A stretch of DNA of 64,000 nucleotides from Bradyrhizobium ivorense (GTDB taxonomy: Bacteria; Pseudomonadota; Alphaproteobacteria; Rhizobiales; Xanthobacteraceae): NCBI RefSeq assembly GCF_900696085.1, contig NZ_CAADFC020000009.1:186001-250000 (forward strand). The letters are read 5' to 3'. The notes below the pieces were generated by a model. That model saw nothing but the letters and a program-made list of their open reading frames with translations. It ran no database searches and had not been told where the DNA came from. This document shows, in pieces, positions 26,887-35,739 of this stretch. Made by a program: the position numbers and the translations under genes. Numbering within the stretch: position 1 is the stretch's first letter; each line of letters opens with the position of its first letter.

Positions 26887-26982
26887 TGCGCGACGAGATT
26901 AGGTTGAATCGTCATCGCGCCTTCGCTCTTCAGTTTGAGCATGATCTTTCGGAAAACCGTTTCGCATTTTTCCGGATCATGC
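26887..26982. repeat. Composite palindromic repeat, GATTAGGTTGAATCG plus GCATGATC family
   Basis: Two joined units: 'GCGCGACGAGATTAGGTTGA...TCGTCATCGCGC' and 'TGAGCATGATCTTTCGGAAA...TTTTTCCGGATCATGC'. The same composite is at 41543-41645. The right end overlaps the stop codon of the small gene at 26977-27210. Confidence 0.85.
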
Positions 26983-27210
26983 CCGGTCGGCGCCAAGGAA
27001 CGCAGGCGCGAGGTCTTCCTGCACGATGACGCCGGCCGCCTCCGGCGTCAGCTCGCTGCCGACCAGATCGAGATTCCGCGCGGCTTCGAGCAGCATGGCG
27101 CGGACGTCGTCCGGCGTGAGCACGCCTTTCGCAATGAGCTTGCGGACCAAAGCCTGCAGGATGAGAACGTCGATTTGGCCGTGTGCAAGCGGCGTCAGCT
27201 TTTCGCTCAT
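26977..27210 (-). CDS. Small protein of unknown function
   Basis: A 77-residue soluble protein, mostly helical by composition, starting MSEKLTPLAHGQIDVLILQA. It reads as one helical domain (LVRKLIAKGVLTPDDVRAML) with an acidic C-terminal part. I do not recognise the family. The ATG at 27210 lies behind 'GGAGACGATC'. It is on the same strand as cbpM, 49 bases after it, so it may share the chaperone transcript. Its stop lies inside a repeat element. Coding style matches the neighbours, which supports it as real. Confidence 0.65.
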   Translation of the reverse strand: MSEKLTPLAHGQIDVLILQALVRKLIAKGVLTPDDVRAMLLEAARNLDLVGSELTPEAAGVIVQEDLAPAFLGADRA

Positions 27211-27259: not shown

Positions 27260-27532
27260 CTAAGGCCGTCGCGCGATGTCGTCGTGCAGTTCTGCGAATG
27301 CCTTGCGCAGGCCGTGCAGCTGATCGACCAGATGCAGGATGACGTCGATGCCCTCGTCGTTGACACCGAAATCGCTCTTCAGATCCTGGATCAGATGGGC
27401 GCGCGCCACATCGGTGTCGGAGAACGTCATTTCGTCGGTGGACTGATCCGGAACCAGCCACTGCTGCTCGATCCAGAACTCCAAGGTCTGCACCTCGAGA
27501 CCCGCGTGGGTGAGGAACTGATGTCTGTTCAT
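27260..27532 (-). CDS. cbpM: Chaperone modulator CbpM
   Basis: A 90-residue MerR-like helical protein ([20 protein letters not shown]...[20 protein letters not shown]). CbpM binds the J-domain of CbpA and holds its co-chaperone activity in check. The start overlaps the stop of the upstream DnaJ-type gene by four bases (ATGA), the usual cbpA-cbpM arrangement. Identification rests on this pairing as well as on the sequence pattern. Confidence 0.88.
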
Positions 27533-28431
27533 GATGCGCCATCCTCCCGCGGATTGAATGCCTTGCGATCCCAGCCCGACACGAACGCTTCGAGCGCGGG
27601 ATCGGGTCCTTTCGGCAGGACCACCTTGAGCTTGACGAATTCATCGCCATGGCCGCCGCCGACATGCGGCGCGCCCTTGCCGCGCAGCCGCATCGTCGTG
27701 CCGGTGTTGGATCCCTTCGGCACCGTCATCGTGACGTCGCCGGTCGGCGTCGGCACCCGAACCTTGCCACCGAGCACGGCCTCGGACAGCGAGATCGGCA
27801 ATTCCAGCGAGATGTCGTCGCCCTCGCGCGTGAAGCGGGGATCGGGCCGGACCGCAACCTCAATCAGCGCATCGCCGGGGCCGCCCTTGCCGGTGCCCGG
27901 TGCGCCCTTGCCGCGCAGGCGCAACACCTGCCCGTCGACCAGGCCCGGCGGAATCGTCACATCGAGCGTGCCGCCGTCGGGCAAGGTCAGGCGCTTGGCC
28001 GCACCGGTGATCGACTCGGCGAAATCGATCGTCAGGCTGTAGTGCAGATCGCGGCCGCGCCGGTTGGCGCGCGCCTGCTCGCTTCGTCGCAGCAGCTCGG
28101 CGAAGGCGTCGTCGGAATCCATGTAGTCGGCGTAGCCGGATGCATCGGCATAGGGATGCCCCTCATCCGCGGTAGCAAAATCCCGGTAGTAGCGATGCTG
28201 CGGCCGCTCGGCGCCGCTCTCGTCGATCTCGCCGGCGTCGAAGCGCTTGCGCTTGTCGGCGTCGCTGAGCAGACCATAGGCCGCGGAGACTTCCTTGAAC
28301 TTCTCCTCGGCGGCCTTGTCGCCGGGATTGAGATCCGGATGCAGCTTCTTGGCCAGCTTGCGATAGGCCTTCTGGATGTCGGCCGCAGTCGCCGCCGGGG
28401 CCACGCCAAGCACTTCGTACGGATTTCTCAC
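27529..28431 (-). CDS. cbpA: DnaJ-family co-chaperone CbpA
   Basis: J-domain protein of 300 residues. The J-domain is N-terminal (NPYEVLGV...KLHPDLN, HPD at 31-33), then a short charged linker, then two C-terminal substrate-binding domains with repeated 'LRLRGKGAP' motifs. The zinc-finger region of DnaJ is missing, as expected for CbpA. I chose GTG 28431 with GGAG seven bases upstream; TTG 28479 would add residues that do not fit the family. CbpA stimulates DnaK and can bind curved DNA. ClpB is encoded nearby on the other strand, and the two act in the same disaggregation pathway. Confidence 0.92.
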
Positions 28432-28533
28432 GATCTGCTCCGCAACATCGAGAATGCGCCCGAGATCATGAGGGCTCAAAAGCAGGCGATTTGCAAGGCC
28501 GCTCGCACCGCCTCCAAGCTTGCAGACATCCGA

Positions 28534-29004
28534 TTATCCGTCGTAGCGCAGCTCGAGGCTACCGAGCTTCTCGGCGATGCGACGGCTGGCCTCGTCCTGC
28601 TGACGCGATGGCCGCAGCGCCATCACACCGTTGACGCCGCCGGCGAGGTTGCGCCCGTCGGACGCGGCCGCCGCACCGTAGGTGCCGGCAAGCCGGCCGG
28701 GCGTCAGCCACGGCGTCGGTGCGATCACGTCCCAGCTCAGCGCGATTTCCGCTTCGCCGATGTTGATGCCGAAGTTGACGGCGAAGTTCTGGATGGCGGC
28801 GAGATAGCGGTCATCCGGCTTGCCGGCGACGTGCAGCACGCACGCCAGATTGGTCACCGACCCCAGGATGAATCCGCTCCCGGCGCCGCCACGGCACGTC
28901 AGCGTTCCGACCTGAACCGGCCCGGTCTGCTGCGCGAGGCCGGCGCCGAACGGCGCAGCCAGGACCAGGGCAACGGCAACAGCCGATCCGATCAACCTGT
29001 CCAT
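28534..29004 (-). CDS. DUF992-family exported protein
   Basis: A 156-residue protein with a Sec signal peptide (MDRLIGSAVAVALVLAAPFG...GLAQ). The mature part has the DUF992 pattern: 'VGTLTCRGGAGSGFILGS' with one conserved cysteine, a second cysteine in 'LACVLHVAG', and 'PGRLAGTYGAAAAS' near the end. Function of the family is unknown; it is a periplasmic or envelope protein. The ATG at 29004 has GGAGGGTGCC upstream. It may be transcribed together with cbpA, 102 bases downstream. Confidence 0.85.
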   Translation of the reverse strand: MDRLIGSAVAVALVLAAPFGAGLAQQTGPVQVGTLTCRGGAGSGFILGSVTNLACVLHVAGKPDDRYLAAIQNFAVNFGINIGEAEIALSWDVIAPTPWLTPGRLAGTYGAAAASDGRNLAGGVNGVMALRPSRQQDEASRRIAEKLGSLELRYDG

Positions 29005-29223
29005 GACGGCACCCTCCGCTCGGGCTGCTCGCAAAATCCTGCGCAAGCCTTACGCGCGAACACGGCATTTGGTTCCGGTGGCCGGTATTTCAGCGATCGA
29101 ACGGCAATTGACTATCATTTGAAACGACCACACCATCGCATGACGGGTGCCACCATCTGGCGCCGGCGCAGATTGCGTGGCATGCACGGTTTCGGCTCGT
29201 TGATATGGCCTTGAGGTGCCGCG

Positions 29224-31836
<2,613 letters not shown>

Positions 31837-31991
31837 AGGCGGTGCATGCCGCGCCGGTGCCGCGCGATGTCATCGCAGCGTCGTCAGGCGGAATCATATG
31901 TCAAGCAGACCGTCGAATGACGCAGATGCCCTTGCGGGGGCCGGCCATTTCGAGCCCTTGTAAAGGCTTTTGTGGCGTGCTCCTCTGCCCG

Positions 31992-32012
31992 TGCCTGGCG
32001 GTCCGCCAGGCA
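31992..32012. promoter_or_regulatory. Perfect 21-bp palindrome upstream of the DyP-encapsulin operon
   Basis: TGCCTGGCGG-T-CCGCCAGGCA, symmetric in all ten positions of each arm. It lies 53 bases before the DyP start codon and 155 bases after the clpB stop. A one-base spacer is too tight for an RNA hairpin loop, which argues for a protein-binding site more than a terminator, though a hairpin with a larger melted loop is possible. The rest of the 229-base gap holds no gene. Confidence 0.5.
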
Positions 32013-32065
32013 TTCTGTCCCTGCCTTTTGTCCTCGTCGACGTGCCGTTCAGTAAGGAGAGATGC

Positions 32066-33106
32066 GTGCCATCAGCCGTTCCGCAACCGGTCGCTGCGAA
32101 GCTGACGCGCGCGGCCATCTTTCTTGCGGTCACGATCAAGCCCGATCCGAATCATGACGTGGTGGTGCGGTCGCTGTGCGGCGATCTCGCCGCGCTGGTG
32201 CGCGCCGTCGGCTTCCGCGACCTCGAGGGTCGGCTGTCCTGCGTGATGGGGATCGGCTCGGAGGCGTGGGACCGGCTGTTCGGCGCGCCGCGGCCGAAGG
32301 ATTTGCATCCGTTCCGCGAAATCCATGGCGTTCACCATGCCGTGGCGACGCCGGGCGACCTGCTGTTTCACATCCGCGCCGTGCCGATGGATCTGTGCTT
32401 CGAGCTTGCGACCCAGATCATGACGCGGCTCGGCGACGCCGTCGCGTCGGCGGACGAAGTGCACGGCTTCAAATATTTCGACGAGCGCGACCTGCTCGGC
32501 TTCGTCGACGGCACCGAGAATCCCGAAGACCAGGCCGCGACCGACGCCACCATCATCGGTGAGGAAGATGCGGCGTTTACCGGCGGCAGCTATGTGATCG
32601 TGCAGAAATACCTGCACGACCTCGGCAAGTGGAACGAGCTGCTGGTCGAGATGCAGGAGAAGATCATCGGCCGCACCAAACTGTCCGACATCGAGCTGGA
32701 TGATTCGGTGAAGCCGAGCTACGCCCACAATGCCTTGACCACCATCGTGGAGAATGGCGAGGAGCTCGACATCGTCCGCGACAACATGCCGTTCGGCAAT
32801 ATCAGCAAGGGCGAGCTCGGCACCTATTTCATCGGCTACGCCAAGTCGCCGCACCGCATCGAGCAGATGCTGCAAAACATGTTCGTCGGCAAGCCGCCGG
32901 GCAACTACGACCGCCTGCTCGACTTCAGCCGCGCCGTGACCGGCACGCTGTTCTTCGTCCCGTCCGCGACCTTCCTGGAGGACGCCGCGAACGTGGTGCC
33001 CGCGCCCGCCCAGCCCGCGCTCGATCCGGCCGACGAGACAACTGCACCAAGATTGCCGCCGACCGATGGCTCGCTCGGGATCGGCTCACTGAAAGGAGAG
33101 GCTTGA
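32066..33106 (+). CDS. DyP-type peroxidase with encapsulin-loading peptide
   Basis: Heme peroxidase of 346 residues, DyP class B/P (YfeX-like). Catalytic features: D148 in GFVDGTENP, proximal heme ligand H221 in 'PSYAHNAL', distal R238 in VRDNMPFG. The C-terminus is a proline/alanine linker (about 311-333) followed by DGSLGIGSLKGEA, the consensus encapsulin targeting peptide. The enzyme should therefore be packed inside the shell encoded by the next gene, one base away. The start is GTG 32066 behind AAGGAG; the nearby ATG at 32062 is out of frame. It uses peroxide to oxidise dyes, phenols or heme-related compounds; the natural substrate is unknown. Confidence 0.95.
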   Translation: MPSAVPQPVAAKLTRAAIFLAVTIKPDPNHDVVVRSLCGDLAALVRAVGFRDLEGRLSCVMGIGSEAWDRLFGAPRPKDLHPFREIHGVHHAVATPGDLLFHIRAVPMDLCFELATQIMTRLGDAVASADEVHGFKYFDERDLLGFVDGTENPEDQAATDATIIGEEDAAFTGGSYVIVQKYLHDLGKWNELLVEMQEKIIGRTKLSDIELDDSVKPSYAHNALTTIVENGEELDIVRDNMPFGNISKGELGTYFIGYAKSPHRIEQMLQNMFVGKPPGNYDRLLDFSRAVTGTLFFVPSATFLEDAANVVPAPAQPALDPADETTAPRLPPTDGSLGIGSLKGEA

Positions 33107-33107
33107 T

Positions 33108-33923
33108 ATGAATAACCTTCATCGGGGACTTGCTCCCATCTCGGACGCGGCATGGGCCCAGATCGAAGAGGAAGCCTCGCGCACGCTGAAGCGGCATCTG
33201 GCGGCGCGCCATGTCGTCGACCTCGACGGCCCGAAGGGTATCGACTACTCCGCGGTCGGCACCGGCCATCTCAAGCGGATCGCGACCCCGGGCGACGGCG
33301 TCGAGGCCAACCAGCGCGACGTCCGGGCGCTGGTCGAATTGCGCGTGCCGTTCGAGCTGACGCGCGCGGCGATCGACGACGTCGAGCGCGGCGCCAATGA
33401 TTCCGACTGGGAGCCGCTGAAACAGGCGGCGCGCAAGATCGCGTTCGCAGAGGATCGCGCGGTGTTCGACGGCTATGCCGCCGCCGGCATTCAGGGCATC
33501 CGCCAGGGCACCAGCAACCCGGTGCTGACGCTGCCGTCGAGCGTAAAGAACTATCCGAGCGTGGTGGCGCAGGCGGTGAGCCAGCTGCGGATGGCCGGCG
33601 TCAACGGTCCCTATACGCTGTTGCTCGGCACCGAGCCGTTTACGGCGATCGGCGGCGCGACCGATGACGGCTATCCGGTGTTGCAGCACATCCAGCGCCT
33701 GGTCGACGGCAAGATCATCTGGGCGCCGGCGATCGAAGGCGGCGTCGTGCTCACCACCCGCGGCGGCGATTTCCAGCTCTCGATCGGCCAGGACCTCTCG
33801 ATCGGCTATCTCAGCCATTCCGCGAGCGCGGTGCAGCTGTATTTCCAGGAAACCATCACCTTCCTGATGCTGACCAGCGAGGCCTCGGTGGTGCTCGCGC
33901 CGGAGGCAAAGAAGCCCGCCTGA
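33108..33923 (+). CDS. Family 1 encapsulin shell protein
   Basis: Shell protein of 271 residues with the HK97-like fold of encapsulins (linocin M18/CFP29 family). Recognisable stretches: the N-terminal helix 'NNLHRGLAPISDAAWAQIEE' that binds cargo peptides, 'ARHVVDLDGPKGIDYSAVGT', 'DWEPLKQAARKIAFAEDRAV' and 'GGVVLTTRGGDFQLSIGQDL'. The size predicts a small T=1 shell of 60 subunits, about 24 nm. The gene starts one base after the DyP stop, with AAGGAG inside the DyP 3' end, so cargo and shell are made together. It likely forms a peroxidase nanocompartment in the cytoplasm. Confidence 0.96.
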   Translation: MNNLHRGLAPISDAAWAQIEEEASRTLKRHLAARHVVDLDGPKGIDYSAVGTGHLKRIATPGDGVEANQRDVRALVELRVPFELTRAAIDDVERGANDSDWEPLKQAARKIAFAEDRAVFDGYAAAGIQGIRQGTSNPVLTLPSSVKNYPSVVAQAVSQLRMAGVNGPYTLLLGTEPFTAIGGATDDGYPVLQHIQRLVDGKIIWAPAIEGGVVLTTRGGDFQLSIGQDLSIGYLSHSASAVQLYFQETITFLMLTSEASVVLAPEAKKPA

Positions 33924-33995
33924 TCGCGGGCGGCACCGATCAATCCGGACTGCTGTTGTGCGGGGGATGTCGTCAAACCGTAATGGAGAAACTCC

Positions 33996-34190
33996 ATGCA
34001 GGACTACGATCTCTACATCAACGCCAAGAAGGCATCGGTCGGTCTATACGTCCGCAAGGGCGCAGGTCTGCCCGACCTCGCCGACGCCAAGGACTGGGTG
34101 TTCGACGGCACTTCGGCAGAGGCCAATCTGCCGCCACAGCTCGTGAAGGAGATCGAGGCCAACGGCCACGCCTTCCGCGACATGAATTGA
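33996..34190 (+). CDS. Small protein of unknown function behind encapsulin
   Basis: A 64-residue protein (MQDYDLYINAKKASVGLYVR...) with a GGAGAAACTCC ribosome site and the same strand as the encapsulin gene, 72 bases after it. It is acidic, soluble and lacks cysteines and an encapsulin targeting peptide, so it is not an obvious cargo. The pattern 'GLYVRKGAGLPDLADAKDWV' is well structured (predicted beta strands then helix), which supports a real protein. I do not recognise a characterised family. A GC-rich inverted repeat (GCCCGC/GCGGGC, 33914-33931) spans the encapsulin stop and could attenuate read-through into it. Confidence 0.7.
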   Translation: MQDYDLYINAKKASVGLYVRKGAGLPDLADAKDWVFDGTSAEANLPPQLVKEIEANGHAFRDMN

Positions 34191-34199
34191 GCGCGTAGC

Positions 34200-35498
34200 T
34201 TACCGCGCTCTATCCCCGACCTTGACCGGCGCGGTCTCGGGCATCAGCCCCATCGCGACAAGGCCGACGATCGCCGCCAGCAGCAGGTACCAGGACGGCG
34301 CCAGCGGATCTCCGGTCACGTGCAGCAGCCAGGTGACGACGAGCTGCGCGGTGCCGCCAAAGCTCGCGATCGCGACCGCATAGATGGTGGCAAACACGCC
34401 GCCGCGGATGTTCTGCGGCAGCGCTTCGGTGAACGCGGCATAGAACGCCGTGAACGGCAACGATCCGATGAACGACAGCACGCCGAAGCCGAACAGCAGC
34501 GACCACGCGCCGGGCGCCTGCACGATCCACAGGAACGCCGGATAGGTCAGCACCAGCACGACCAGCTGCGGCCAGACCATGATCGGCTTGCGTCCGAGCC
34601 GATCGGCGAGCCAGCCGCCGAGCAGCGCGCCGATGATCTGCAGCCCGTTGCTGACCAGCGACACCGTGAACGCCAGCGACGGCGACACATGCAGCGTGGT
34701 CTTGGCGTAGGTCGTCATGTACTGCGTGACGTAGGTCGAGATCGTGCCGCTGGCGAGAATCATCACCGCCAGCACGATGACGCGAAGATGGCGCCGCGCC
34801 TGCGCGACATGACCCGAGCCTTCGACGCTGACGGCGGGACGCTCGGCGTGCGAGATCGTCTCCGGCAGCGTGCGGCGCATCCAGATGCCGAACGGCAGGC
34901 AGACCGCTCCGATCAGGAACGCGACGCGCCAGCCATAGGACTGCAGCATCTCGGGCGCCATCGTGCTGCTCAGGACGACGCCGACCAGCGCGCCGGCGGT
35001 GGCCGCGATCTCCTGGCTGGCGGGCTGCCACGCCACCACGAGGCCGCGATCCCGCGGCGCCGCGATCTCGATCAGATAGGCCGTGGTCGGCCCGACCTCG
35101 CCGCCGAGCGCGAACCCCTGCACCATCCGCGCCACGATCACGACGATCGGCGCGACGACGCCGATCGTCTCATAAGCCGGCGTCAGCGCGATGGTCAGGA
35201 TCGCGCCGCCCATCAGCGCAAAGCTCAGCAGCATGGCCGGCCGCCGGCCGACCCGATCGGAGAAGATGCCGAGCACGATGCCGCCGATCGGCCGCGTCAG
35301 GAACCCGGCGCCGAAGGTCGCCAGCGACAGCATGAGACTGCCGTACTCGCTGTGCGCGGGGAAGAAGGTGCGCCCGATCTCGGTCGCGAAGAAGCTGTAG
35401 GTGATGAAGTCGTAGAACTCCAGCACGTTGCCGATGGTCGCGGCAAAGGCTGCGCGCTTGACGTCGAATGCCTGTTTCGCCTCGCTATCCGGCAACAA
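34200..35498 (-). CDS. MFS transporter, metabolite:H+ symporter (MHS) type
   Basis: Inner-membrane transporter of about 432 residues with twelve predicted helices. MHS-family marks: 'AATIGNVLEFYDFITYSFFA' at the first helix, the 'DRVGRRPAMLLSFALMGG' loop after helix 2, 'RMVQGFALGGEVGPTTAYLI' in helix 4 and 'DRLGRKPIMV' in the second half. Relatives carry citrate, alpha-ketoglutarate, proline/betaine or shikimate; the substrate is not readable. The start is uncertain: TTG 35498 with AAGGA upstream fits the family, while the frame extends further upstream without sense. It converges on the small gene behind encapsulin. Confidence 0.85.
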   Translation of the reverse strand: MLPDSEAKQAFDVKRAAFAATIGNVLEFYDFITYSFFATEIGRTFFPAHSEYGSLMLSLATFGAGFLTRPIGGIVLGIFSDRVGRRPAMLLSFALMGGAILTIALTPAYETIGVVAPIVVIVARMVQGFALGGEVGPTTAYLIEIAAPRDRGLVVAWQPASQEIAATAGALVGVVLSSTMAPEMLQSYGWRVAFLIGAVCLPFGIWMRRTLPETISHAERPAVSVEGSGHVAQARRHLRVIVLAVMILASGTISTYVTQYMTTYAKTTLHVSPSLAFTVSLVSNGLQIIGALLGGWLADRLGRKPIMVWPQLVVLVLTYPAFLWIVQAPGAWSLLFGFGVLSFIGSLPFTAFYAAFTEALPQNIRGGVFATIYAVAIASFGGTAQLVVTWLLHVTGDPLAPSWYLLLAAIVGLVAMGLMPETAPVKVGDRAR

Positions 35499-35739
35499 TC
35501 TCGGTTCCTTGTACGCCTGTTCGGAGCGAATATTATTCGTCGCGCCATGCGAGGCAAGGCATGGCAACACCGCGCGATCGCATGCCGTTCGCAATCGACG
35601 GGAGGACAGATGTGATGCCAGCCGACAGTGCTCACGGCGCGCGACAATCGGGTCGTCAAGGCCGCCGACCACGCGTGACGCGAACGGCACGGCGGCTCCG
35701 GTCGCTGGGACCGGAGCGAGCAACGGATCGCGGGGTCGC

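Follow-up and report, generated by a model that had tools for sequence, protein, structure and literature searches.

The window, as we call the whole stretch of 64,000 nucleotides that was analysed (G000:C9:186001-250000), belongs to a Bradyrhizobium ivorense genome of 9.4 Mb in 44 contigs, and its genes find their closest named matches in Bradyrhizobium. It carries the genes for a DyP-type peroxidase, a family 1 encapsulin shell and a small third protein, here called Sm, all on the forward strand. The original prediction had placed a chaperone block next to this operon, and ClpB, a J-domain protein and a CbpM/MerR-like protein are indeed encoded there. The features are as follows.

26977-27210, minus strand: 'hypB', small conserved protein, third gene of a divergent CbpA-CbpM unit (tblastn match from a Bosea homologue, L223; start chosen by eye)
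27260-27532, minus strand: CbpM-like chaperone modulator, MerR/HspR-like (PF13591, 44.5 bits; matches the CbpM of Shinella plasmid pShin-01)
27529-28479, minus strand: CbpA-type J-domain co-chaperone (PF00226, PF01556)
28534-29046, minus strand: DUF992 protein between the two chaperone units (PF06186, 68.8 bits)
29224-31836, plus strand: ClpB disaggregase (TIGR03346, 1410 bits, cut-off 1232)
31955-31966, plus strand: conserved element CCCTTGTAAAGG upstream of DyP (core CTTGTaAAGG in 22 aligned Bradyrhizobium upstream regions)
32066-33106, plus strand: DyP-type peroxidase, encapsulin cargo (TIGR01413, PF04261, PF20628; GTG start, 346 aa)
33065-33103, plus strand: cargo-loading (targeting) peptide DGSLGIGSLKGEA, DyP residues 334-346
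33092-33099, plus strand: Shine-Dalgarno-like site AAAGGAGA of the shell gene, inside the Lys-Gly-Glu codons of the loading peptide
33108-33923, plus strand: family 1 encapsulin shell (NF041155, PF04454, PDB matches; 271 aa)
33985-33989, plus strand: ribosome-binding site GGAGA of Sm, read from the sequence
33996-34190, plus strand: Sm, conserved 64-aa accessory protein (homologues, dN/dS, predicted beta-beta-beta-alpha-beta fold)
34200-35723, minus strand: MFS transporter, convergent neighbour at the right-hand edge of the module (PF07690)

In profile searches 'hypB' matched no Pfam family, and the HspR model NF047375 gave the CbpM-like protein 34.6 bits, which is under its cut-off.

GxxDG is a motif of the DyP family, and GFVDG occupies residues 145-149 of the window's DyP, which scores 284.6 bits against TIGR01413 (cut-off 100.5). 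Alignment to PDB 8u4z (E 6e-146) places His221 and Arg238 as the proximal His and distal Arg that the accessible part of PMC10960027 names, and with these residues and the motif the protein belongs to the DyP family. Its nearest relative by tree path is the DyP of B. tropiciagri SZCCT0294, with 95% identity over the DyP core. The C-terminus had been predicted to be the loading peptide of family 1 encapsulins; it is DGSLGIGSLKGEA, intact at residues 334-346 and in agreement with the GSLxIGSLK consensus given in the same part of PMC10960027. This C-terminal targeting peptide, together with a shell gene co-encoded 1 nt downstream, identifies the protein as an encapsulated DyP.

The shell protein reaches 352.2 bits against NF041155 (cut-off 100) and 328.7 bits against PF04454 (cut-off 24.3), which places it in family 1, and it aligns without gaps over residues 1-266 to the solved Klebsiella shell 8u50 (E 1.9e-115), bearing out the forecast of a family 1 shell gene beside DyP. 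Among the pocket residues that PMC10960027, in its accessible part, lists in Klebsiella numbering (Arg34, Asp38, Asp229, Ile230), the shell retains R34, D38 and D229 and has Leu at 230, a conservative change from Ile. Judging by the gap-free match to 8u50, it would be expected to form a T=1 HK97-fold particle of about 24 nm. As a cargo-shell pair the two genes are nothing unusual and belong to the commonest class of encapsulins: 1,505 of 2,383 family 1 systems are of the DyP class in the part of PMC8346489 available. That the general system is known from other bacteria, as had been noted, is right, and the DyP encapsulins of Klebsiella pneumoniae and E. coli (8u50, 8u4z, 9e5e), as far as the accessible text of PMC10960027 and PMC12140327 goes, have the same two-gene core and loading motif; the likeness extends over 266 residues of the shell and nearly the full length of DyP with its tail. 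They differ in their surroundings, the neighbours here being ClpB, CbpA/CbpM and Sm.

The DyP stop codon, TGA at 33104-33106, is followed by a single T and then by the shell ATG at 33108, so that the one-base gap originally described is correct to the base. Such a gap is uncommon: among 50 named relatives that have both genes, 3 show it (L063, L064, L086), 40 have a DyP stop that overlaps the shell start by 8 nt (ATGAATAA), and 7 have other spacings. The cargo here ends three residues sooner than in the overlapping form. Since the likely ribosome site of the shell gene, AAAGGAGA, sits within the last codons of the cargo, cargo and shell may be translated in tandem, and codon usage favours such coupling. 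All 22 loci compared (the window and L061-L081), which through shared ancestry are not fully independent, use AAA for the Lys and GGA for the Gly. As background, in L061-L081 the genes for DyP, shell and ClpB have AAA at 256 of 1,621 and GGA at 115 of 2,389 codons. Another glycine of the loading peptide, placed between Ile and Ser, is encoded by GGC in 22 of 22. In the genus sample, one operon (L028) has AAG-GGA at the Lys-Gly codons, and among more distant operons these codons vary. Of the original claim that cargo and shell are encoded and translated together, the co-encoding and a favourable layout thus stand, and the coupled translation itself would be their likely consequence.

The third small gene, which had also been predicted, is conserved, has a ribosome site and evolves with a dN/dS of about 0.1. 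Measured against the window gene, Sm has a median dN/dS of 0.10 in 20 comparisons; with 21 comparisons each, the shell has 0.11 and DyP 0.16, some of the synonymous distances being near saturation. In Sm, 13 of the 64 residues are invariant across 46 aligned sequences; Sm is under purifying selection. Sites resembling GGAGAGGAG precede most Bradyrhizobium copies, and weaker ones precede the others. Given its linkage, its ribosome sites and its dN/dS, Sm is a real gene and a chance open reading frame is ruled out. Profile searches assigned it to no Pfam, NCBIfam or PHROG family. Its AlphaFold model, a small fold predicted with confidence (pLDDT 89.7), has strands at residues 3-9, 12-20 and 34-41, a helix at 47-56 and a last strand at 58-62. 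Foldseek gave no match in the PDB at E <= 0.001, and the best E in a profile search of PDB sequences was only 0.33. The nearest solved fold is NE1680 (2hfq), with a middling Z of 5.1 over 60 residues; chains that we take from their titles to be MbtH-like reach Z 2.2-2.7 over 45 residues. These comparisons concern the fold only, and an MbtH homologue is ruled out by sequence, the hhalign profile probability being 0.1%. Over most of its length Sm is, at profile level, distantly homologous to a family of small Bradyrhizobium proteins that we call 'B' (hhalign 87% over 56 columns in local mode, 40% in global mode), whereas the control, MbtH against B, gave 0.5%. The B proteins (L048:5936-6130; homologues L191-L220) have about 60 residues and occur in 39 of 60 genomes, with up to 6 matches each; the single member checked has no Pfam family above cut-off.

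Homologues of Sm were found in Bradyrhizobium, Rhizobium, Shinella, Mesorhizobium, Afipia, Brucella grignonensis, Hyphomicrobium, Frateuria, Luteibacter and Pseudoxanthomonas, in unclassified metagenome bins (one labelled Verrucomicrobiota) and on plasmids of Bosea, Shinella, Paraburkholderia and Caballeronia. In named genomes, mostly of Alphaproteobacteria, there are 59 Sm loci, a set that contains many close relatives and three partial Sm matches (L117-L119); 50 of them adjoin DyP and shell (one with a truncated shell match, L096), 4 adjoin DyP only and 5 neither. Sm lies downstream of the shell in 24 and upstream of DyP with a shell gene in 26, and the nearest DyP or shell match is within 500 nt in 52 of the 54 Sm loci with DyP, the exceptions being L095 and L100. 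In Paraburkholderia and Caballeronia, Sm is near the DyP unit, not inside it. Among 195 genomes of an evenly drawn Bradyrhizobium sample, encapsulin was found in 39 (one weakly, G120), Sm in 32, both in 30 and neither in 154 (Fisher p 5e-25, ignoring relatedness), and the two are linked in 28 of the 30. This sample and the 59 loci are not mutually independent, because some contigs are in both (for example L082 and L048). Sm without DyP nearby also exists, and two genomes with Sm (G037, G073) had no detectable DyP. Conversely, three lineages in which DyP and shell are retained (L155/L119, L165, L272), and perhaps a fourth (L339, a weak match), have an Sm that seems decayed; on the megaplasmid of Methylorubrum extorquens AM1 (L272:4644-4832) a remnant with an internal deletion is found upstream of a DyP-encapsulin pair that is itself intact. 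Across the class, 385 genomes included two with an Sm match, of which one is the genome of the window and the other is doubtful, and 14 with an encapsulin match; in the wider flanks of 14 class-wide encapsulin loci outside the window's genome DyP was recognisable at one and Sm at none. Of nine encapsulin regions on plasmids (L264-L272), picked from 40 of 63 records and not part of the Sm set, eight lacked Sm and one was that with the remnant.

CbpA-type J proteins, CbpM, ClpB and DUF2171 recur around Sm operons, and some lineages have an FAD oxidoreductase and DUF2945 after the shell. The same neighbours are found in Rhizobium, Shinella, Mesorhizobium, Afipia, Brucella, Bosea and others, on plasmids too, and in two gene orders; DUF2171 had no match at the window locus or at its near relatives L063 and L064. 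The Bradyrhizobium sample provided 41 loci for examination, of which 40 have DyP together with a shell gene. Chaperone or DUF2171 neighbours accompany 31 of 31 operons with Sm (30 intact, 1 remnant) as against 1 of 9 without (p 1.2e-7, ignoring relatedness); the sole Sm-less operon with such neighbours, L247, has ClpB and a J-domain gene, and eight Bradyrhizobium operons keep DyP and shell with neither Sm nor chaperones. A wider-family sample had a DyP match in 35 of 198 genomes, and 25 loci were examined in wide flanks; DyP matches of about 56% identity and less were viewed in short flanks only. Sm was intact at 4, a remnant at 2 (one a weak match) and absent at 11 of its 17 DyP-shell loci, and the neighbours were present at 6 of 6 with Sm (L163 with DUF2171 only) versus 0 of 11 without, 3 of the 11 being on short contigs. 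Seven DyP loci of this sample without peptide and shell had neither Sm nor chaperones in their flanks, and their genomes were not among the Sm-positive genomes of the Sm search. A DyP without a shell match (L346) likewise lacked Sm and chaperones, and two DyP-shell loci (L313, L314) had no Sm within short flanks. The form of the system here had been called less studied, with the chaperone block and third gene treated as context; since both recur with the operon across several families, it is they that make up its less ordinary part.

We consider it probable that the DyP-loaded family 1 encapsulin is one unit of a stress-response module that is co-inherited with chaperones, DUF2171 and Sm. In such a module the C-terminal peptide of a heme peroxidase would direct its packing into a small icosahedral shell, the two proteins would be made by tandem translation, and the pair would be inherited together with CbpA/CbpM, ClpB, Sm and, although absent from the window locus, DUF2171. 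Under heat or oxidative stress the module would remove peroxide and rescue damaged proteins, which is its most likely function. The gene identities, operon layout, linkage and purifying selection are direct observations, and we infer shell assembly, DyP loading, coupled translation and the stress function. A stress role for DyP encapsulins has already been proposed in print, in literature of which part was accessible.

For Sm, the role that we favour is that of a small cytosolic helper that would keep fresh DyP competent for heme uptake and hexamer assembly until the shell closes, but this is a guess and a doubtful one, and the more specific proposal, that Sm is a dedicated maturation or assembly factor, neither cargo nor shell, which holds DyP in a heme-accepting, shell-competent state while CbpA and ClpB serve the same loading pathway under stress, we regard as unlikely. 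We know of no dedicated non-cargo, non-shell factor for encapsulin maturation or assembly. An undersupplied maturation step is plausible, since, in the accessible part of PMC12140327, heme came to about 4% when an enterobacterial DyP-shell pair was co-expressed in E. coli in its native two-gene form. Against a helper, many DyP-encapsulin operons, and shell-less DyPs, do without Sm. At four Sm loci (L087, L095, L105, L112) the DyP is left without loading peptide and shell, and these losses need four changes on the DyP tree, with not all forks supported; as an argument for a link between Sm and DyP they are weakened because the set was chosen by Sm. Those same four loci tell against Sm as a second cargo or as a binder of the shell in its lumen, at its pores or on its surface, albeit with the same reservations, that they were found via Sm and that the forks separating their four places are partly unsupported. 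The adjacency of Sm to a shell gene at 50 of 59 loci speaks for this alternative. Yet inspection by eye of 46 aligned Sm proteins showed no tail resembling GSLxIGSLK, so Sm is probably not a cargo, and we hold this alternative as a whole to be improbable.

A reading that we take seriously, without preferring it, is that Sm is a stress-island gene with a job of its own, for example with the chaperones, and no physical link to DyP or shell, its linkage arising from co-regulation and joint transfer of the island. Sm tracks the chaperone/DUF2171 neighbourhood in both samples (31 of 31 versus 1 of 9; 6 of 6 versus 0 of 11), peptide-less DyPs outside the island lack it, the homologous B proteins are multicopy in Bradyrhizobium, and at one locus (L084) Sm has CbpM and a J-domain gene next to it, and the 1.5 kb left before the contig ends contain no DyP. 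However, whichever of the two gene orders applies, Sm is close to DyP or the shell gene, and at six loci with Sm, DyP and shell (L101, L104, L113, L115, L116, L117) the flanks contain no match to a chaperone or DUF2171, those of Frateuria, Luteibacter and Pseudoxanthomonas included. The DyP tree, built by a quick method and weak at many forks, has only 4 changes of Sm. The neighbours follow Sm in 1.7 of 3 independent contrasts on average and never go the opposite way, which is not significant; with only three such contrasts, statistics cannot separate a protein that works on DyP from one that works beside it. The seven DyPs without peptide and shell also lack Sm, so Sm is not a simple follower of DyP, and the idea that it follows DyP irrespective of the island is weakened. 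As these peptide-less, Sm-less DyPs belong to a sample chosen by DyP, Sm fits the island form better than it fits DyP alone. Finally, the locus could be an ordinary two-gene DyP encapsulin with ClpB and a small gene as chance or local neighbours. Its core is of the commonest family 1 type (1,505 of 2,383 systems in the available part of PMC8346489), but recurrence of the neighbours across genera, on plasmids and in two gene orders contradicts this reading, and we think it very improbable.

Accessory genes beside a DyP core are known from other lineages: the accessible part of PMC8346489 lists a cupin and a short-chain oxidoreductase in mycobacteria and DUF1345 and DUF5709 in Streptomyces. Those systems are similar in combining a DyP core with lineage-specific accessory genes and differ in that neither Sm nor chaperones are named for them in that part of the paper. 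Closer in context is a plasmid of Roseateles sp. XES5 (L268), where a J-domain protein and CbpM likewise lie directly upstream of DyP and shell; it differs in having no Sm by profile search and a sigma-70 family gene following. We found no paper pairing 'encapsulin' with 'ClpB' or 'CbpM' in a search that covered neither supplements nor most subscription papers, and no title or opening of an abstract concerned Sm. The neighbourhood with Sm is thus a conserved variant, for which the literature searched held no description, of a core of known kind. According to the sections available, the cellular role of DyP encapsulins is still speculative (PMC8346489) and heme-loaded ones are hard to make in E. 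coli (PMC12140327); a conserved partner and a chaperone neighbourhood offer a genetic handle on both questions.

Upstream of DyP, the CCCTTGTAAAGG element is followed in Bradyrhizobium by a conserved block resembling GCATGCTCCTCT, and the two could possibly be a promoter or operator. A loose RpoH-type pattern was not found upstream of DyP (22 regions) or ClpB (35), a sigma-70 scan of 31800-34300 gave none, and an Rfam search of 28400-34300 had no match.

A second, broken DyP-encapsulin is present in the same genome (G000:C36:12583-13579; L002, L053). Its DyP is reduced to residues 167-343 and its shell, which has an early stop, to residues 1-125, and the locus runs into an IS1182-family transposase; in the DyP tree its DyP piece clusters with the Bradyrhizobium copies that have Sm upstream of DyP. 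On plasmids of Methylobacterium and Sphingomonas (L264, L271), the same nanocompartment occurs in a different, DNA-repair context, with uvrB, uvrA, DyP, encapsulin and a PRC-barrel gene in one orientation.
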